Part shown: piece by piece, positions 10,152 through 18,543 of the stretch
How positions within the stretch are numbered: the first letter of the stretch is position 1
Layout of the letters: each line of letters begins with the position of its first letter
Origin: Verrucomicrobiota bacterium
GTDB lineage: Bacteria > Verrucomicrobiota > Verrucomicrobiia > Chthoniobacterales > UBA10450
Assembly (NCBI GenBank): GCA_003219695.1
Contig: QHQA01000109.1
Span: 1-47,873 of the forward strand
Reading direction: 5' to 3'
Length of the DNA stretch: 47,873 nucleotides
Notes under the pieces: generated by a model
The model's input: only the letters and a program-made list of their open reading frames with translations
Databases searched by the model: none
What the model was told of the DNA's origin: nothing
Program-made: the position numbers and the translations under genes

Positions 10152-11954
10152 ATGAAAGATCAAAGCGGTATCAGCTATAGCAATGCGGCGGTCGCCGCGA
10201 CCCCAAAGCATCTTTTACAATTCGCGGTCGATCAGCGTTACGACGATTACACGCCGGTCGATCATGCCGTATGGAGGTTCATCATGCGGCAGAATATTTT
10301 TTTCCTGCGCGAGTACGCGCACAAAGTTTACTTCAAGGGTCTGCTTAACACCGGCATCTCGTTCGAACGCATCCCGCGCATCGAAGAGATGAACGATATT
10401 CTCGCAAAAATTGACTGGGGCGCGGTGGCCGTGGACGGGTTTATCCCGCCGGCTGCGTTCATGGAATTTCAGGCTTACAAAGTGCTGGTGATCGCGTGCG
10501 ACATGCGCCAGATCCACCACATCGAATATACGCCCGCGCCTGACATTGTGCATGAGGCCGCGGGTCACGCGCCGATCATTGTCGATCGCGAATACTCGAA
10601 GTATTTGCAGCGGTTCGGCGAAGTCGGCGCGAAGGCGATGTCATCCAAAAAAGATTTCGAGCTGTATCAAGCGATCCGGCACTTGTCGATTTTGAAGGAG
10701 CGGCCAAACGCGGATCCGGAAGAAGTCGAGGAAGCGCAAAAGCTGGTGGAGCACCGACAAAAAACCTTGGGCGAGCCTTCCGAAATGGCGCTGCTCTCGC
10801 GGTTGCACTGGTGGACGGTCGAATACGGTCTCATCGGCACACTCGAGAATCCAAAAATCTACGGCGCGGGATTGCTTTCATCGATCGGCGAATCGGTCTC
10901 GTGTCTCGAGCCGGCGGTGAAGAAGATCCCCTACTCCATCGACGCGCAGAATTACGCATTCGATATCACGACCCGCCAGCCGCAGCTCTTCGTGTGCCGC
11001 GACTTTCAGCACTTGAAGGACGTGCTGGAGGAATTTGCAAGCAAGATGGCCTATCAAGTCGGCGGACTCGAAGGGATCAACAAAGCCATCGAATGTAATA
11101 ACACCGCGACCTGTGAATATTCGTCCGGCCTGCAAGTCAGCGGCGTTTTCACTGAAGTTATCACGGACAAAAACAATTCTCCCATTTATCTGCGCACAAC
11201 TGGCAAGGCTGCGCTGGCTGTTTGCAACAAAGAACTCGAAGGCCACGGCATCGATTATCACAAGGAGGGGTTCGGTTCGCCCAGCGGGAAATGGAAACAA
11301 ACATCGACATCGCCCGAGTCGCTCACCAACGATCAATTGCATGCGCTCGGAATTGTCGAGGGCAAGAAAGCGAAGGTCGAGTTCGTCAGCGGCATCGTAG
11401 TTTCAGGCAAGGTCGAGAAAATCTTGCGTCGCGACGGGAAATTACTGCTGATCACATTCTCAAATTGCAGCGCGAAATACGGCGAGTGCGTTTTGTTCGA
11501 TCCCGATTGGGGCACGTATGACATGGCAGTCGGCGAACGAATCAGTTCGGTCTTTAACGGCGCGGCAGACAAGGACGCCTACAACCAGGTGGCGCTCGTT
11601 CCCAAAGAGCGAACGATCAAGGTTCCATCCGACGCAAAACGGAAGCGCCTGGAGAATCTCTACGCGCAAGTGCGCAAGATTCGCGAGAGCAAAACCGGCT
11701 ACGAACGGCTCGGTGAGATTTGGGAAACGCAGCAGGCCGAACATCCCGAAGACTGGTTGTTGTCGATGGAAATCTTTGAGATCCTCGACACAACCGACAA
11801 ACAGCCGGAATTAAAGGCCAGGATCGAAAAGTTCCTAAACGAGAAGAAGGCCAAGACCAAGGACCTCTCAACACTGATTAGCTGGGGATTCCGTTTAGTC
11901 GAGTACCACAAGAGGCCCGAATACCAAGCGGCGCTGCACGCCTCGCCAAAATAG
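10152..11954 (+). CDS. Aromatic amino acid (phenylalanine-4-)hydroxylase, long form
   Basis: 600 residues from ATG 10152, with a strong AAGGAGGAGG ribosome site at 10135-10144. The catalytic domain covers about 20-310. Iron ligands are His134 and His139 in HEAAGH, and Glu224 in HWWTVEYGLIG. Reaction: pterin- and O2-dependent hydroxylation of Phe to Tyr. Ordinary bacterial enzymes have about 270-300 residues; this one carries a further 290-residue C-terminal part (VSGVFTEVITDKNNSPIYLR, GFGSPSGKWK, then a charged helical end), known in long homologues from Bacteroidota but of no assigned function. It faces a cluster for pterin synthesis and homogentisate catabolism, which fits Phe degradation. 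No regulatory ACT domain precedes the catalytic domain. Confidence 0.93.
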   Translation: MKDQSGISYSNAAVAATPKHLLQFAVDQRYDDYTPVDHAVWRFIMRQNIFFLREYAHKVYFKGLLNTGISFERIPRIEEMNDILAKIDWGAVAVDGFIPPAAFMEFQAYKVLVIACDMRQIHHIEYTPAPDIVHEAAGHAPIIVDREYSKYLQRFGEVGAKAMSSKKDFELYQAIRHLSILKERPNADPEEVEEAQKLVEHRQKTLGEPSEMALLSRLHWWTVEYGLIGTLENPKIYGAGLLSSIGESVSCLEPAVKKIPYSIDAQNYAFDITTRQPQLFVCRDFQHLKDVLEEFASKMAYQVGGLEGINKAIECNNTATCEYSSGLQVSGVFTEVITDKNNSPIYLRTTGKAALAVCNKELEGHGIDYHKEGFGSPSGKWKQTSTSPESLTNDQLHALGIVEGKKAKVEFVSGIVVSGKVEKILRRDGKLLLITFSNCSAKYGECVLFDPDWGTYDMAVGERISSVFNGAADKDAYNQVALVPKERTIKVPSDAKRKRLENLYAQVRKIRESKTGYERLGEIWETQQAEHPEDWLLSMEIFEILDTTDKQPELKARIEKFLNEKKAKTKDLSTLISWGFRLVEYHKRPEYQAALHASPK

Positions 11955-12215: not shown

Positions 12216-13064
12216 TCAAACCGTTTCATCTTTGAAATGGCGTTTGCCCTTCAACGCCTTGGCGTATTCGTCCTTACTCAGAATGTTCTCGTCCACTTGC
12301 ATATCGGTACGGCAAAAGTTTGCGAACCAATTCTCGATGCGCTGCCGATCTTTCAAGACTTCCTCGGTGATATAGTTCGCATCTACGTTGATGCAGATCG
12401 CGCCGACGATCCCAAATTCTTTCCGCTTGATGGGGATCGTGGTGCATTTGAATCTGCGCGCGCCGATGTTGAGCTCGTAGTTCAGTTTCTCTTCGCTCAG
12501 AAGTTGCCGGCGTTTGAGATCGATGAGCAGATTCGTTGTGCCGTCGCGCAAATGCCGGCCGGTCACGTCGTTTTCGAGCGCGATAAGCGAGTGCGCGGGG
12601 TCAGCCAGGTTATGCAGCAAAATTTCCATGCCCGTGTTTGGGAATGATTTGCCGATCAGCCGCACAATGCGCCCGTAGTTTTCGAGGAATTCATGCGTGT
12701 CGTCGGCGATCGTTTTGCCGTGATATTTCTCGAATAGCTGCACGTAAACTTTTTGCTCAGCCGGCTCGAGCTGACTGCGCACGTTGTTTTGTTCGCCAAT
12801 GAAAATGAGCTGCCGCGCTGCGGTATGATCTTCATTTTTGAGGAAGTAATGCATGCCCAGCCGAAAATCTTTCAGGCTGAATTCGCCGAAATTTTCCCGC
12901 GTAACTGTGAACGGATAGAAATCGTACTCTTCCAGGTTTCTGCCGTACTTGCGCCGCCGCTCCTTGTATTTTCCCCACACAAATCCAGTCGCCAGGAAGA
13001 TCAGCGATACGATGATCGAAGCGACAACGTTGATGGTGAGTTCGCTTTGCAGCGCTTTGATCAT
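12216..13064 (-). CDS. Membrane-anchored protein with YheO-like PAS domain
   Basis: About 282 residues from ATG 13064; a GTG at 13091 would add nine residues but lies in repeat-like sequence. An N-terminal TM helix (VVASIIVSLIFLATGFVWG, about 12-32) is followed by a basic KYKERRRKYGR stretch. A helical region follows, then a C-terminal domain (about 135-235) with GMEILLHNLADPAHSLIALE, DVTGRHLRDGTTNLL and VGAICINVDANYI, the signature of the YheO/DauR-type PAS domain. YheO proteins carry a C-terminal DNA-binding HTH; none is visible here, so this looks like a membrane sensor or scaffold rather than a DNA-binding regulator. It is last in the minus-strand pterin/aromatic run, 160 bases after the SDR gene. 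Its 3' end is duplicated at 11994-12054. Confidence 0.68.
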   Translation of the reverse strand: MIKALQSELTINVVASIIVSLIFLATGFVWGKYKERRRKYGRNLEEYDFYPFTVTRENFGEFSLKDFRLGMHYFLKNEDHTAARQLIFIGEQNNVRSQLEPAEQKVYVQLFEKYHGKTIADDTHEFLENYGRIVRLIGKSFPNTGMEILLHNLADPAHSLIALENDVTGRHLRDGTTNLLIDLKRRQLLSEEKLNYELNIGARRFKCTTIPIKRKEFGIVGAICINVDANYITEEVLKDRQRIENWFANFCRTDMQVDENILSKDEYAKALKGKRHFKDETV

Positions 13065-13223
13065 GGGAATTATTCTGAGCTCTGTAGCCACCGGTTCGCC
13101 GCGGGACGAATCCGTCCGAGGTGCGGACCTGCGGCCGGTCTCTTCTTGCTGGTGGTCACTCTAGAAAAACGGCTCACAAAGCCGTGGCTACAACGCATTT
13201 CCGACGGCAACTTGCGCCAGGAA

Positions 13224-13916
13224 TCACAGATTTCCAGCCAGACTCGAGAGCATGATACTCTCGACCAGCGTGTCCGTCGGGCGCGCCAGGGCGAAGGCGA
13301 CTGCATCGGCCACTTGCGTCGCGCTCATCATTTTTTCGCGGGGCCATCTGCCCTCGACCCGGTCCCAGATTTCGGTGTCGGTCGCGGCGGGATAAACGTT
13401 GATCACGCGAATTTTGCGGTCCCGCAATTCTTCGCGCACGCATCGCGAGAAGCCTTCGAGCGCGAACTTGCTCATGCAATAAGCGCTCCAGTTTGGAAAG
13501 GCGGTTTTCGCTGCGACCGAAAGGATGTTGACGACGCTCGACCCCGGCGGCATCCGCGGAACAAAGCGCTGCGTTAATAGAAACGGCGCCGTAATATTCA
13601 CGCCGACGGTTTGCTCCCATTCGATTGGCGTGATCTCGGTAAACGGTTTCACTACCGCGACACCGGCATTGTTCACGAGCAAATCGATCGGTCCGCTGCC
13701 GACTTGCGCGATCAAGTCGGAGACGCCTGAGACCTTGGCCAGGTCGTGGACCAGGAGGATTACTTTCGCACAACGTGGCTCCACGGCTTTTCGCGTCTGC
13801 GCCAGAGCAACCGTATCGCGTCCGTGCAAAAGCAACACCGTATCTTCTACAGCGAGCTTCTCGGCAATTGCCCGGCCGATTCCGCGACTCGCGCCGGTAA
13901 TGAGATAACGCTTCAT
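13224..13916 (-). CDS. Short-chain dehydrogenase/reductase (candidate sepiapterin reductase)
   Basis: 230 residues from ATG 13916 (MKRYLITGASRGIGRA). The upstream extension to 14030 falls in a palindromic repeat and is rejected. The NAD(P) loop is Gly8-x3-Gly12-x-Gly14, NNAG is at 82-85, and the catalytic Asn107, Ser133, Tyr146 and Lys150 are all present. SDR specificity cannot be read from these motifs. Its place downstream of GTP cyclohydrolase I and the fused PTPS gene, and the need for a reductase to turn 6-pyruvoyl-tetrahydropterin into tetrahydrobiopterin, make sepiapterin reductase the best guess (inference). A general oxidoreductase is the alternative. Confidence 0.85.
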   Translation of the reverse strand: MKRYLITGASRGIGRAIAEKLAVEDTVLLLHGRDTVALAQTRKAVEPRCAKVILLVHDLAKVSGVSDLIAQVGSGPIDLLVNNAGVAVVKPFTEITPIEWEQTVGVNITAPFLLTQRFVPRMPPGSSVVNILSVAAKTAFPNWSAYCMSKFALEGFSRCVREELRDRKIRVINVYPAATDTEIWDRVEGRWPREKMMSATQVADAVAFALARPTDTLVESIMLSSLAGNL

Positions 13917-13929
13917 TCTGTGCTTACCG

Positions 13930-14029
13930 AAAACGTCGAACGTCCAACGCTCAACGTCCAACGCCGAATTGAAAATGGTAGGGCGCGACCGCCGGGCGCG
14001 CCGGACGGCTCGGCGATCCGTCCCTGCCA
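13930..14029. repeat. AACGTCCAACG unit followed by TGGTAGGG palindrome
   Basis: 13930-13968 holds tandem AACGTC(G/C)AACG-type units, the same family as 45952-46071. Directly after it, 13976-14029 is a TGGTAGGG...CCCTGCCA palindrome of the family seen at 1750, 7346 and 43138. The pair fills the space between the SDR and PTPS genes. Confidence 0.65.
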
Positions 14030-14034
14030 TGGCG

Positions 14035-15246
14035 TCATGCTCGTCTCAACGTAAATCGGTTATTCGCCGTTTCCCACAAACGTAATCTAACGAGCCGTTG
14101 CCCTACACGATTGTCGATCTTCTGCCAGAGCGCCCGGACGATATTTTCTCCGGTGGACGGCGCATCACGAAAATCCTCCGTCTCGAGATCGAGATGACGA
14201 TCCTGCCACGGCCGAAGCGATTCTGTGATCGCATTCCGCAACGCGACAAAATCGTAAAGCGTTCCGCTGCGCGCATCGTACTCGCCGCCCACAGTGGTTT
14301 CGGTCAAATAACCGTGCCCATGGCCGCGCGGATTGTTGCACTTGCCGTAAAGACGCGCGTTTTCTGCATCGGAGAGCGTAGCGGCATGCAGCCGATGTGC
14401 CGCATGAAATCCGACCTGCAATCCGAGAAAAATGATTTTATCTCCCCGTGCTTCGGAAAAAAAATCGGCGCGTTCGTGCAAACGCACGCGATGAAGCGGT
14501 ATCATCGCATTGACGCGCTCGTAGATGTATAATGCCAGGCTCTCGGTTGTGATGGGACGGTCCTGCAATCCAACGACGTCTTCGTTCAAGTACCGGTGAT
14601 CGAGTTCGGCGCGCAGCGCGCGGATACAAGCGTCGATTGCATCGTGGGAGACTGCCGGCGTTTTGCCGTCGAATCGTTCCGCGCGAAAGGTGAGACGCAC
14701 GCGGTAATTGTGTCCGTGAGCTCCAGTCGCCGGCCCGAACAGCCGCGCGTTCTCTTCCGCGCTCAAAAACGGCGAAATCGTTTTGCGCGCCGCCGAGAAT
14801 TCGAACCAGTAATTCGCCTCACTTGCTCCGGTTGAATAGTACGTGGCGCTGCGATCAGGCGACTCGGTCAGGTGACAGGCGCACAGTTTTGCTTCGACAT
14901 CGGAGAACAGAGGCGCAACACCGGCGTAGAGTTCGTGCGCGATGTTCTCCGCGGTGGGCGCAAGATCGCGGAACGCAGGATTGTCCTCGTTCAGAAACTT
15001 GTGATCGAAACGTTCGCGCAGGATTTTGCCAGCGCGCTCTTTGATTTCGCTGATGTTGATCAGCATTCCGGTCGTCGGGTCCACGGACCCGCTGAAAATA
15101 AAGTAGGCGACGTAGTTACGGCCGCTGCCATAACGCGCGTTCGTCTCCGGACCAAAAGCGGCGACGTTTTCCTGATCGCTCCAACTGTCAACGTTCAGCC
15201 GGCGCGAAGCGGAGAATTCCAGACGCTTGCTGACGGTCAGAAGCAT
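14035..15246 (-). CDS. Triple-domain 6-pyruvoyl-tetrahydropterin synthase/QueD-like protein
   Basis: 403 residues formed by three PTPS/QueD domains in tandem (about 9-138, 148-265, 277-403); single-domain enzymes have about 120-150. Domain 3 keeps the full zinc site (His284, His309, His311) and the catalytic Cys303, but its Asp-His pair is replaced (Gln348, Asp349). Domain 1 keeps Asp81-His82 and Glu128 but has lost all three zinc His (Arg15, Ser41, Arg43). Domain 2 keeps HGHNY (His177, His179) and Asp216-His217 but lacks the first zinc His (Arg154) and the Cys. Known enzymes are dimers of trimers with shared active sites, so this chain may be a built-in trimer with divided residues (inference). 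It lies between folE and the SDR gene, which favours PTPS for biopterin over QueD for queuosine. Confidence 0.87.
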   Translation of the reverse strand: MLLTVSKRLEFSASRRLNVDSWSDQENVAAFGPETNARYGSGRNYVAYFIFSGSVDPTTGMLINISEIKERAGKILRERFDHKFLNEDNPAFRDLAPTAENIAHELYAGVAPLFSDVEAKLCACHLTESPDRSATYYSTGASEANYWFEFSAARKTISPFLSAEENARLFGPATGAHGHNYRVRLTFRAERFDGKTPAVSHDAIDACIRALRAELDHRYLNEDVVGLQDRPITTESLALYIYERVNAMIPLHRVRLHERADFFSEARGDKIIFLGLQVGFHAAHRLHAATLSDAENARLYGKCNNPRGHGHGYLTETTVGGEYDARSGTLYDFVALRNAITESLRPWQDRHLDLETEDFRDAPSTGENIVRALWQKIDNRVGQRLVRLRLWETANNRFTLRRA

Positions 15247-15319: not shown

Positions 15320-15949
15320 TTAATCCTTCAGTAGCGAGAGGAACTCGGAGCGCGTTCGCGCATCGTCCTTGAAGACGCCGAGCAAACACGACGTTTTCAT
15401 CACCGAGTTTTGCTTTTCGACGCCGCGCATCATCATGCAGAGATGTTTCGCTTCCACCACCACCGCTACGCCGGATGGCTCGAGGCACCTCATGAGCGAC
15501 TCAGCGATTTGCGTCGTAAGATTTTCCTGAATTTGCAAACGGCGCGCAAACACATCGACGATACGCGCCACTTTCGAGAGGCCAATCACTTTTCCATTTG
15601 GAATGTAAGCGATGTGCGCCCGGCCGATGAAAGGGAGAAGATGATGCTCGCACAACGAATACAGCTCGATGTCCTTGACCAGAATGATCTCGCTCGCATC
15701 GGATTCGAAAACGGCATCGTTGATGATTTCGTCGAGGTCCTGCCGGTAACCTTGCGTGAGAAATTCCAGGGCGCGCGCCGCGCGGTCCGGGGTGCGCCGC
15801 AGACCTTCCCGATCTACGTCCTCGCCGATGCTCTGAAGCAGTTCGCGGTACGCATTTGCGATTCGGTCGAGCTCTTTCCCGGGCAAACGATTGCTCTCAC
15901 GCGTGAATCGCTCTTCAAGGTCAAGATCGGAATTGCGCCGTTGAATCAT
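15320..15949 (-). CDS. folE: GTP cyclohydrolase I
   Basis: 209 residues, standard size for the type I enzyme. The zinc ligands are Cys100 and His103 in [10 protein letters not shown] and Cys171 in HLCMMMRG. The GREGLRRTP-like segment ([13 protein letters not shown], about 46-58) and the C-terminal [12 protein letters not shown] are also typical. Reaction: GTP to 7,8-dihydroneopterin triphosphate, the first step of folate, biopterin and queuosine synthesis. It is followed on the same strand by the triple PTPS gene (73-base gap with a hairpin) and then the SDR gene. That order mirrors the de novo biopterin pathway, so a role in supplying the phenylalanine hydroxylase cofactor is likely. Confidence 0.96.
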
Positions 15950-16125: not shown

Positions 16126-17310
16126 CTACTCGAGCCAGCTCTGGGGATATTTCGGATCGTCAAGCGCGAGCGATTCCTCTGTCAGCTCAAGTGTGTGTTG
16201 CGTATCAAACATCACCGCGAGCTCTTCGGTGCGCGTGGCGTTCTTGCTCGCCATGATCGTTCCCGGATGGGGGCCGTGCGGAATCCCACGCGGGTGCAAC
16301 GTAATCGAACCGCTCTCGATTCCGCGCCGCGAACCAAAATTCCCGCGCACATAGAAGAGCACTTCATCTGCTTCGACGTTATCGTGCACCCACGGAATTT
16401 TGACTGCTTCAGGATGAGTATCGAGCATGCGCGGCGCAAACGTGCACACGACGTAACCGCGAATCTCAAAGGTCTGATGGATGGGCGGCGGCTGATGCAC
16501 TGTGCCTGTGATCGGCTCGAAATCCTGCGCGTTAAATGTGAACGGATAGAGATAGCCGTCCCAGCCCACCGCATCAAAGGGGTGATGCGCCAGTGTCACT
16601 CGCGTGAGTCGTGGCCCGTCTTTCACGAGAACATCGACATCTTCCTCCTTATCGATCGTGATTAATCCGCGAGGAGCATGGAGATCGCGCTCCGAATAGG
16701 GCGCGCCCATTTTGATCTGGCCTTCATGATTTAAGTAACGCTGTGGAATTCGCACTGGCCCGACCGATTCCAAAATCAGATAATCTTCCTCCTCGATGTT
16801 GTCCGGCACGAGTCGGTAGGTCATTCCCCGGGGAATGACGATGTAATCCTCCGCGCGATAAGGCAGCTTGCCGAAAACAGATTCCATTACGCCGCCGCCG
16901 TGAAACACAAAAATGATCTCATCGGCGCCGCCGTTCTTGTAATATTCAAATTTATTGTATGCTTTCGCCGGCTTCGCGCGGTAGGCGATCACATCCTGGT
17001 TAAACAACATCGGGACGCGGCCGGTGTAGAGATCGCCGCGACGCGGGATGTTGGCGGTCTTCAAATGATGATGTCGCAATGGGCTGTCGGTCACTTTTTT
17101 CGGTTCCCAATGTTTGAGTAACTCCACGTTGCGCACGCGGGTTGGCGGACGCAGGTGATACATGATCGAGTACGCCTCATCGAATCCCTGCGTGGTGAAA
17201 ACGTGCTCATAAGCAATCCCTTCATTCTTGTAAGTCGGTCCCTGCCCGTTGCGATGAAACCAGATGTGATGTTTTCTCGGGATTTCCCCCAGTTTTTGAT
17301 AGTATGGCAT
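16126..17310 (-). CDS. hmgA: Homogentisate 1,2-dioxygenase
   Basis: 394 residues from ATG 17310, with GAGGAGG at 17318-17324 as ribosome site. Homogentisate dioxygenase features include FHRNGQGPTYKNEG near the N-terminus, FEYYKNGGADEIIFVFHGGG and HHPFDAVGWDGYLYPFTFN. The likely iron ligands are His309 (VHDN), Glu316 (ADEVLFY) and His345 (IPHGPHPG). Reaction: ring opening of homogentisate to maleylacetoacetate. The spacing between the first His and the Glu is one residue longer than in the human enzyme; the chain is also shorter than the 430-445 residues of proteobacterial and animal forms, which fits the shorter bacterial branch. It follows the HPPD gene on the same strand. Confidence 0.92.
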   Translation of the reverse strand: MPYYQKLGEIPRKHHIWFHRNGQGPTYKNEGIAYEHVFTTQGFDEAYSIMYHLRPPTRVRNVELLKHWEPKKVTDSPLRHHHLKTANIPRRGDLYTGRVPMLFNQDVIAYRAKPAKAYNKFEYYKNGGADEIIFVFHGGGVMESVFGKLPYRAEDYIVIPRGMTYRLVPDNIEEEDYLILESVGPVRIPQRYLNHEGQIKMGAPYSERDLHAPRGLITIDKEEDVDVLVKDGPRLTRVTLAHHPFDAVGWDGYLYPFTFNAQDFEPITGTVHQPPPIHQTFEIRGYVVCTFAPRMLDTHPEAVKIPWVHDNVEADEVLFYVRGNFGSRRGIESGSITLHPRGIPHGPHPGTIMASKNATRTEELAVMFDTQHTLELTEESLALDDPKYPQSWLE

Positions 17311-17403: not shown

Positions 17404-18543
17404 TTACAAATTTCCTCGCGCGGCTTGCTCGCGCTCGATGGCCTCGAACAGCGCCTTGAAATTACCTTTGCCAAAGCTTTTCGCGCCCTTGCGCTGGATG
17501 ATCTCGTAAAAGAGCGTCGGCCGGTCCTCCACTGGCTTGCTAAAAATTTGCAACAGATAACCTTCGTCATCGCGATCGACCAGAATGCCCAGTCCCTTCA
17601 GCGCGTTCAGCTCTTCGTCGATGTGCCCAACGCGATCCAGCAGCGTGTCATAATAGGTCGAAGGAATGTGCAGGAACTCGACTCCGCGCTTTTGCAAATC
17701 AGTCACCGTCTCGATGATGTTGTTCGTGGCCATAGCGATGTGTTGCACGCCTTCGCCATCGTAAAATTCCAGATATTCTTCCACCTGCGATTTCTTTTTA
17801 CCCTCGGCCGGCTCGTTGATCGGAAATTTCACGAAACCATTTCCGTTGCTCATCACCTTGCTCATCAGCGCCGAGTATTCGGTGGAAATATCCTTGTCGT
17901 CGAAGGTTAGGATGTTGCGGAAGCCCATCACGTCCTCGTAAAATTTCACCCACGGATTCATCTGGCCCCAGCCGACGTTGCCCACGCAATGATCGACGTG
18001 TTGCAGACCGGTCCCGGGCGGATTGTAATTCGACTCCCACTTGCGGAACCCCGGCATAAACGGACCATGATAATTCTGTCTCTCGATAAAAAGGTGAACA
18101 ACCTCGCCATAGGTATGGATTCCGCTCATCACGACGTCACCGTCCTCATCCGATAACCTTTTCGGTTCCAGGTAGCTCTTTCCGCCGCGCTTGGTCGTTT
18201 CTTCCCAGGCTGATGTCGCGTCATCAACTGTGAGCGCCAGCACCTTTACGCCGTCGCCGTGTTTGTGATGGTGCTCCGCGACCGGATGGTTCGACCGAAT
18301 CGGCGTTGTAAGCACAAACGTGATTTTATTCTGACAAATCGCATAACTCGCTCGACCCTTCGTTCCCGTTTCCGGTCCGGAATAAGCGAGCGAGTGAAAA
18401 CCAAAGGCCGTCTTGTAGAAATGCGCCGCCTGTTTGGCGTTACCGACATAAAATTCGACGTAATCAGTGCCTTGCAGCGGCAAAAAATCCTTCTCCGCTG
18501 CCGGAGCCCTCTTTGTTTCTGGAGTCGCAATTGTTGTTGGCAT
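17404..18543 (-). CDS. hpd: 4-Hydroxyphenylpyruvate dioxygenase
   Basis: 379 residues from ATG 18543, with AGGAGG at 18549-18554. It has two vicinal-oxygen-chelate halves. The iron ligands are His185 (LQHVDHCVGNV), His268 (GVQHIAM) and Glu347 (LFYEIIQRKGA), and the C-terminal helix FGKGNFKALFEAIE closes the active site. Reaction: 4-hydroxyphenylpyruvate plus O2 to homogentisate and CO2. It is first in the minus-strand run, directly before homogentisate dioxygenase, so the two probably share a transcript. No tyrosine aminotransferase, which would make its substrate, is in the window. Confidence 0.96.
   Translation of the reverse strand: MPTTIATPETKRAPAAEKDFLPLQGTDYVEFYVGNAKQAAHFYKTAFGFHSLAYSGPETGTKGRASYAICQNKITFVLTTPIRSNHPVAEHHHKHGDGVKVLALTVDDATSAWEETTKRGGKSYLEPKRLSDEDGDVVMSGIHTYGEVVHLFIERQNYHGPFMPGFRKWESNYNPPGTGLQHVDHCVGNVGWGQMNPWVKFYEDVMGFRNILTFDDKDISTEYSALMSKVMSNGNGFVKFPINEPAEGKKKSQVEEYLEFYDGEGVQHIAMATNNIIETVTDLQKRGVEFLHIPSTYYDTLLDRVGHIDEELNALKGLGILVDRDDEGYLLQIFSKPVEDRPTLFYEIIQRKGAKSFGKGNFKALFEAIEREQAARGNL

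Follow-up and report, generated by a model that had tools for sequence, protein, structure and literature searches.

A fused three-domain PTPS with catalytic residues divided among its domains: a probable single-chain pseudo-trimer in a tetrahydrobiopterin gene cluster of a Verrucomicrobiota bacterium

The window analyzed here, a stretch of 47,873 nucleotides (contig QHQA01000109.1) from a Verrucomicrobiota bacterium, encodes a chain of three fused PTPS domains among which the catalytic residues are divided. We consider it probable that this chain is a single-chain PTPS-II pseudo-trimer, which would hold one composite active site at the interface of domains 3 and 2 (D3/D2) and would serve in a tetrahydrobiopterin (BH4) pathway. 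The reading of the initial annotation, a pre-joined trimer with a composite site, is supported, and it is refined here as to the catalytic partner and a decayed interface.

The gene runs on the minus strand, from 15246 down to 14035, and the coordinates given for it earlier were right. Pfam PF01242 matched the 403-aa chain three times (207 bits in total, E 6.7e-62), and a genome search placed the PTPS copies at 15234-14836, 14805-14455 and 14412-14044 in a single frame. Both the sequence and the fold of the third copy match PTPS of rat, human and C. elegans. A pseudogene or an assembly fusion was ruled out, because the identical three-domain frame recurs in dozens of genomes. The gene and its domains are as follows.

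14035..15246, minus strand: three-domain PTPS gene (P0001), 403 aa; open reading frame with an ATG start, three Pfam PTPS matches, AF2 model
14830..15246, minus strand: domain 1 (D1), residues 1-139; Asp81-His82 and Glu128 kept, zinc triad and Cys lost
14440..14823, minus strand: domain 2 (D2), residues 142-269; Asp216-His217, His177, His179 and Glu258 kept, Arg154 for the first zinc His, Ala for Cys
14041..14433, minus strand: domain 3 (D3), residues 272-402; zinc triad and Cys303, motif CxxxxxHGH, Asp-His lost

Catalytic residues were assigned by alignment to rat PTPS (His23, Cys42, His48, His50, Asp88, His89 and Glu133). D1 carries R15, S41 and R43 at the zinc positions and lacks the Cys, with D81-H82 present. 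D2 reads R154-A-H177-H179, with D216-H217, and has the short CxxxHGH-type spacing, but without the Cys. D3 reads H-C-H-H in a CxxxxxHGH motif (CNNPRGHGH, i.e., C303-NNPRG-H309-G-H311), with Q348-D349 where Asp-His is expected. The pterin-anchor Glu is present in all three domains (E128, E258 and E392). This alignment bore out the residue numbers of the initial annotation and its statement that only D3 has the zinc triad (His284, His309 and His311) and Cys303, having lost Asp-His, and that D1 and D2 keep their pairs without a Cys. The accompanying claim that both D1 and D2 had lost the zinc site in part holds for D2, in which only the first His is missing, and not for D1, in which all three zinc His are gone. 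The Cys, Asp and His of the triad are all found, spread over different domains of one chain. Given that zinc ligands and Cys occur together only in D3 and Asp-His only in D1 and D2, the copies most likely must cooperate. The key positions are listed below, with counts among the 72 window-type chains described further on.

15001..15006, minus strand: Asp81-His82 (D1); invariant (72/72), would lie opposite the altered D2 site if the favoured pairing holds
14785..14787, minus strand: Arg154 (D2), in place of the first zinc His; Arg in 71/71 chains with the residue
14710..14718, minus strand: His177-Gly-His179 (D2); 72/72
14596..14601, minus strand: Asp216-His217 (D2), proposed catalytic partner of Cys303; Asp in 71/72 (one Asn), His in 72/72
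14395..14397, minus strand: His284, first zinc ligand of D3; 72/72
14338..14340, minus strand: Cys303 (D3), catalytic Cys equivalent; 72/72
14314..14322, minus strand: His309-Gly-His311, zinc ligands of D3; 72/72
14200..14205, minus strand: Gln348-Asp349 (D3), site of the lost Asp-His pair; variable

Free PTPS is a dimer of homotrimers, and in the rat enzyme the zinc ligands, Cys42 and Glu133 come from one subunit and His89 from its neighbour. Burgisser 1995, a paper cited by PMC7546909 and PMC2229834, terms the PTPS triad intersubunit in its title, and each zinc His is required (PMC10767420). An AF2 run on a 49-sequence alignment gave a confident fold for the fused chain (pLDDT 96.1, pTM 0.92). 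The chain passes from strand 4 of one domain (132-137; 262-267) to strand 1 of the following domain (142-155; 271-284) by way of a 3-4-residue loop, which implies a continuous sheet. D3 of the model matched human, rat and C. elegans PTPS with Z ~15, and D1-D2 aligned with urate oxidase across 225 residues (Z 11.4, rmsd 4.5 Å). Kinship to GTP cyclohydrolase IB or urate oxidase was not accepted from such fold matches, which were read as the common T-fold only.

To date, 74 distinct three-domain chains have been compared, 72 of which form a core of the window type, from Verrucomicrobiota, Zixiibacteriota, Acidobacteriota and Myxococcota. All 72 share the zinc triad and Cys of D3 and the Asp-His of D1. 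A complete D2 pair with none in D3 was found in 70; the two exceptions are one Asp-to-Asn change in D2 (L037, Asn-His) and one complete D3 pair (L085). This division of residues is common to orthologues down to ~42% identity, and wide variation is seen at the zinc positions of D1 and at the Asp-His positions of D3. L085, an Acidobacteria chain, is the only core member with a full D3 Asp-His, though its D1 has no zinc site or Cys, and L079 is the sole case with a Cys at the D1 position. The zinc His of D1 are often retained in the chains of Zixiibacteriota and Myxococcota, so the loss of the D1 zinc site was probably later. Pairwise dN/dS was 0.06-0.19 per domain in seven pairs, and 0.24-0.78 in at least one domain for three close pairs, mostly at low dS. 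All three domains are under purifying selection. Random degeneration among homologues was looked for and rejected, as the losses fall in the same domains of other three-domain chains and the division is the same in 70 of the 72. Together with the low dN/dS, this rules out random decay of D1 and D2 and agrees with the earlier proposal that the degenerate domains are not decaying.

A search for relatives returned 24 full-length chains, the window's included, at 60-82% identity to the window chain, and a scan of named genomes returned 63 loci. These loci belong to Chthoniobacterales (including Ca. Udaeobacter), Zixiibacteriota, one Acidobacteria and one Myxococcota, with two-domain chains in Chloroflexales and Acidimicrobiia. 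Counted over sampled genomes at the thresholds used, three-domain chains occurred in 22/98 Zixiibacteriota, 1/199 Acidobacteriota, 1/189 Myxococcota and 3/289 Verrucomicrobiota, where all three cases came from the family of the window's source. Chloroflexota have many two-domain chains and, in two genomes, a remote three-domain type.

These shorter and remote relatives inform the direction in which domains pair. Single-domain relatives keep nearly all catalytic residues, with Asp-His retained almost throughout. Eight of the 21 two-domain chains are intact in both domains, four lack only the last-domain Asp-His, one lacks only the first-domain Cys and eight lack both; in total, the first-domain Cys is missing in nine and the last-domain Asp-His in 12. 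Loss of the last-domain Cys or of the first-domain Asp-His was seen in 0/21 two-domain chains. The double losers are L146, L147, L148, L149 and L152 from Chloroflexota and L113, L114 and L116 from Acidobacteriota. In a tree, the double losers of Chloroflexota fall among half-losers, and those of Acidobacteriota are placed elsewhere; double loss therefore probably evolved repeatedly. L136 and L156, the remote three-domain chains of Chloroflexota, have Asp-His without Cys in D1, Cys and Asp-His in D2 and Cys without Asp-His in D3, and thus hold two complete Cys/Asp-His sets. The D2 of both has the short CxxxHGH spacing.

In domain trees, D3 clustered with the second domains of the majority of two-domain chains (100/96), and D1 with the two-domain D1 in one of two trees. 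The D2 domains formed a clade of their own (98/92), apart from QueD, which gives no support to a middle domain derived from QueD. The simplest reading of these trees is that a middle domain may have been added to a two-domain chain. In the Chloroflexota three-domain chains, D1 and D3 group with two-domain chains, and the D2 of L156 is a long branch.

Use by each domain of its own Asp-His pair fails, with three mismatches in the window type. The rule we favour has the Cys of each domain i act with the Asp-His pair of the preceding domain, i-1. Under it, invariant positions face invariant ones (the R/H/H of D2 and the Asp-His of D1) and variable positions face variable ones (the D1 zinc positions and the D3 Asp-His). 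The catalytic partner of Cys303 would thus most likely be Asp216-His217 of D2, where the initial annotation had left the choice between domain 1 and domain 2. The direction of pairing is based on one Chloroflexota lineage, on the contrast in conservation and on reasoning from strand topology.

From these sequence patterns, we infer one composite site per chain, the D3/D2 pairing, closure of the ring and activity. Three protomers joined head to tail would form a covalent pseudo-trimer ring, and two such chains would associate. At every interface, one domain would supply the zinc/Cys/Glu half and the preceding domain the Asp-His. At D3/D2 (His284, Cys303, His309, His311 and Glu392 with Asp216-His217), all residues are kept, and we propose this as the chain's only active site. 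D2/D1 (Arg154, His177, His179 and Glu258 with Asp81-His82) would be altered yet invariant, and the closing D1/D3 interface would have lost function on both sides. Two observations run against this explanation: the Asp-His of D1 is invariant although the Cys it would face is lost, and L085 keeps the D3 Asp-His though its D1 is dead.

A reading compatible with the D3/D2 site, which we regard as possible and a minority view, is that D2/D1 is no relic and would be a second, altered site with a role of its own, such as pterin or phosphate binding, product channelling or regulation. Its residues (Arg154, His177, His179, Glu258, Asp81 and His82) vary little or not at all, in contrast to the drifting zinc positions of D1 and Asp-His of D3, but such conservation could also be structural. 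Extending this, we tentatively suggest that three equivalent sites may have met three fates, with D3/D2 catalytic, D2/D1 a conserved non-catalytic site that binds pterin or phosphate or is regulatory, and D1/D3 abandoned. Fusion would then have set the direction of decay, such that only the closing interface dies, and would have done so repeatedly in two- and three-domain chains.

The opposite handedness, in which Cys303 would work with Asp81-His82 across D3/D1 and Asp216-His217 would face the dead pocket of D1, appears rather unlikely. Window-type chains alone leave one mismatched site in either direction, and Asp81-His82 is the most strictly kept pair (72/72). The atypical L037 (Asn-His in D2) and L079 (Cys in D1) fit this direction better, with zero mismatches. 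However, L136 and L156 would have two broken half-sites under it and have none under the favoured rule, and the variable D1 zinc positions would be paired with the invariant Asp-His of D2. The order of strands also suggests that the fused D2-D3 strands set the strand with the first zinc His of D3 beside D2.

We find it improbable that the other domains are scaffold only, with D3 catalyzing without Asp-His or with a substitute (Asp349/His351) and the kept pairs being structural. His351 is invariant in 54 aligned chains, and the D1 pair is invariant without any facing Cys. Asp349, on the other hand, is variable (D in 36, Y in 17 and N in 11 of 72), and the near-universal Asp-His of single-domain relatives argues against its being dispensable. 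Scaffold residues would not be expected to show the reciprocal losses seen in two-domain chains, where the Cys goes from the first domain and the Asp-His from the last.

The locus is a cluster for tetrahydrobiopterin synthesis and phenylalanine/tyrosine catabolism, with the following neighbours of the fused gene.

15320..15949, minus strand: folE, GTP cyclohydrolase I, first step of the BH4 pathway; TIGR00063 above cut-off
13224..13916, minus strand: SDR, probable sepiapterin reductase, 230 aa from M39 of the listed reading frame; adh_short
10152..11954, plus strand: phenylalanine 4-hydroxylase, BH4-dependent, 600 aa; PRK14056 806 bits, 7vgm E 1e-162
16126..17310, minus strand: homogentisate 1,2-dioxygenase-like
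17404..18543, minus strand: 4-hydroxyphenylpyruvate dioxygenase (HPPD); TIGR01263 454 bits, cut-off 277

On one strand, folE lies upstream of the fused PTPS gene and the SDR downstream, with the dioxygenase genes further upstream. FolE and SDR flank the fused gene in most sufficiently long loci, those of two-domain chains included, and an AAAH is nearby in Verrucomicrobiota and many Zixiibacteriota. Pterin-4a-carbinolamine dehydratase is encoded elsewhere in the source genome. Sepiapterin reductase 2bd0 is among the best PDB matches of the SDR (E 1.2e-24), with other SDRs scoring higher, and the homologues align over ~230 aa. The gap between SDR and PTPS (13917-14034) is an interspersed repeat with ~40 partial copies in the genome; the listed SDR reading frame begins within it, and the likely start is the ATG at 13916. 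The homogentisate dioxygenase-like protein (16126-17310) scores 58 bits, far below the hmgA cut-off of 510, and is found beside HPPD in relatives too, at 81-96% identity. A YheO-like PAS protein (12216-13091), possibly a regulator, adjoins the cassette in many Verrucomicrobiota relatives.

The FolE-PTPS-SDR cassette beside phenylalanine hydroxylase suggests that the fused chain is most likely a BH4 (PTPS-II) synthase, as a fused variant and not a standard member. The motif CxxxxxHGH is a mark of PTPS-II, the BH4 subfamily (PMC5041015). FolE would act first, the fused PTPS would make 6-pyruvoyltetrahydropterin as a PTPS-II, the SDR would follow as sepiapterin reductase, and BH4 would go to phenylalanine hydroxylase. 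A QueD-like (PTPS-I) role in queuosine synthesis, which automatic annotation would suggest, is highly improbable: the chain scores 108.6 against the QueD model TIGR03367 (cut-off 89.25) and a whole-genome search found no other PTPS gene in the source genome (assembly 93% complete), but D3 has CxxxxxHGH rather than the PTPS-I motif CxxxHGH, the neighbours are FolE, SDR, AAAH, HPPD and HGO, and most congeners with the fused chain have a separate QueD-like gene (~121-131 aa). The finding suggests that Ca. Udaeobacter-type bacteria, a group reported to be among the most abundant in soil (PMC7343977), have a tetrahydrobiopterin pathway; no description of a BH4 pathway in such bacteria was found in the literature searched.

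The chains form a natural series: one domain, two intact domains, two domains minus one site, three domains with two complete Cys/Asp-His sets and three domains with a single set. This series allows the passage from a symmetric oligomer to an asymmetric single chain to be followed, and it makes testable which PTPS contacts carry catalysis, how many sites the enzyme requires and for what reason dead half-sites persist. Within the limited coverage of the literature searched, no fused PTPS with split residues, three-domain version or graded series was found.

Among known systems, D3 aligns full-length with PTPS-II of rat (1b66/1gtq), human (3i2b) and C. elegans (2g64) at 33-36% identity (Z ~15), and shares their zinc triad, Cys, CxxxxxHGH motif and BH4-synthesis gene context. 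Known PTPS-II enzymes form homohexamers of single-domain subunits, each with the full set of residues, whereas the present chain joins three domains and distributes these residues among them. Plasmodium PTPS (PTPS-III type, PMC2229834) shares the PTPS fold and a changed active-site Cys, but it is a single domain in which a Cys-to-Glu change leads to a folate-pathway product (PMC2229834). Urate oxidase (5yja and others) has tandem T-folds in one chain, like D1-D2, but differs in identity (6-10%), chemistry and barrel size. Bimodular QueF of V. cholerae and E. coli consists of fused T-folds with the Cys in the C-terminal module only and an interdomain site (PMC5372742). It resembles the fused PTPS in its split T-fold site and in having a one-domain, multi-site relative, but it is a nitrile reductase with two domains, a homodimer without a central tunnel, and has no PTPS triad. 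Profile searches gave no QueF family match for the fused PTPS, so the likeness is one of evolutionary logic only. With bimodular QueF as a precedent, the split-site principle is already known in the superfamily.
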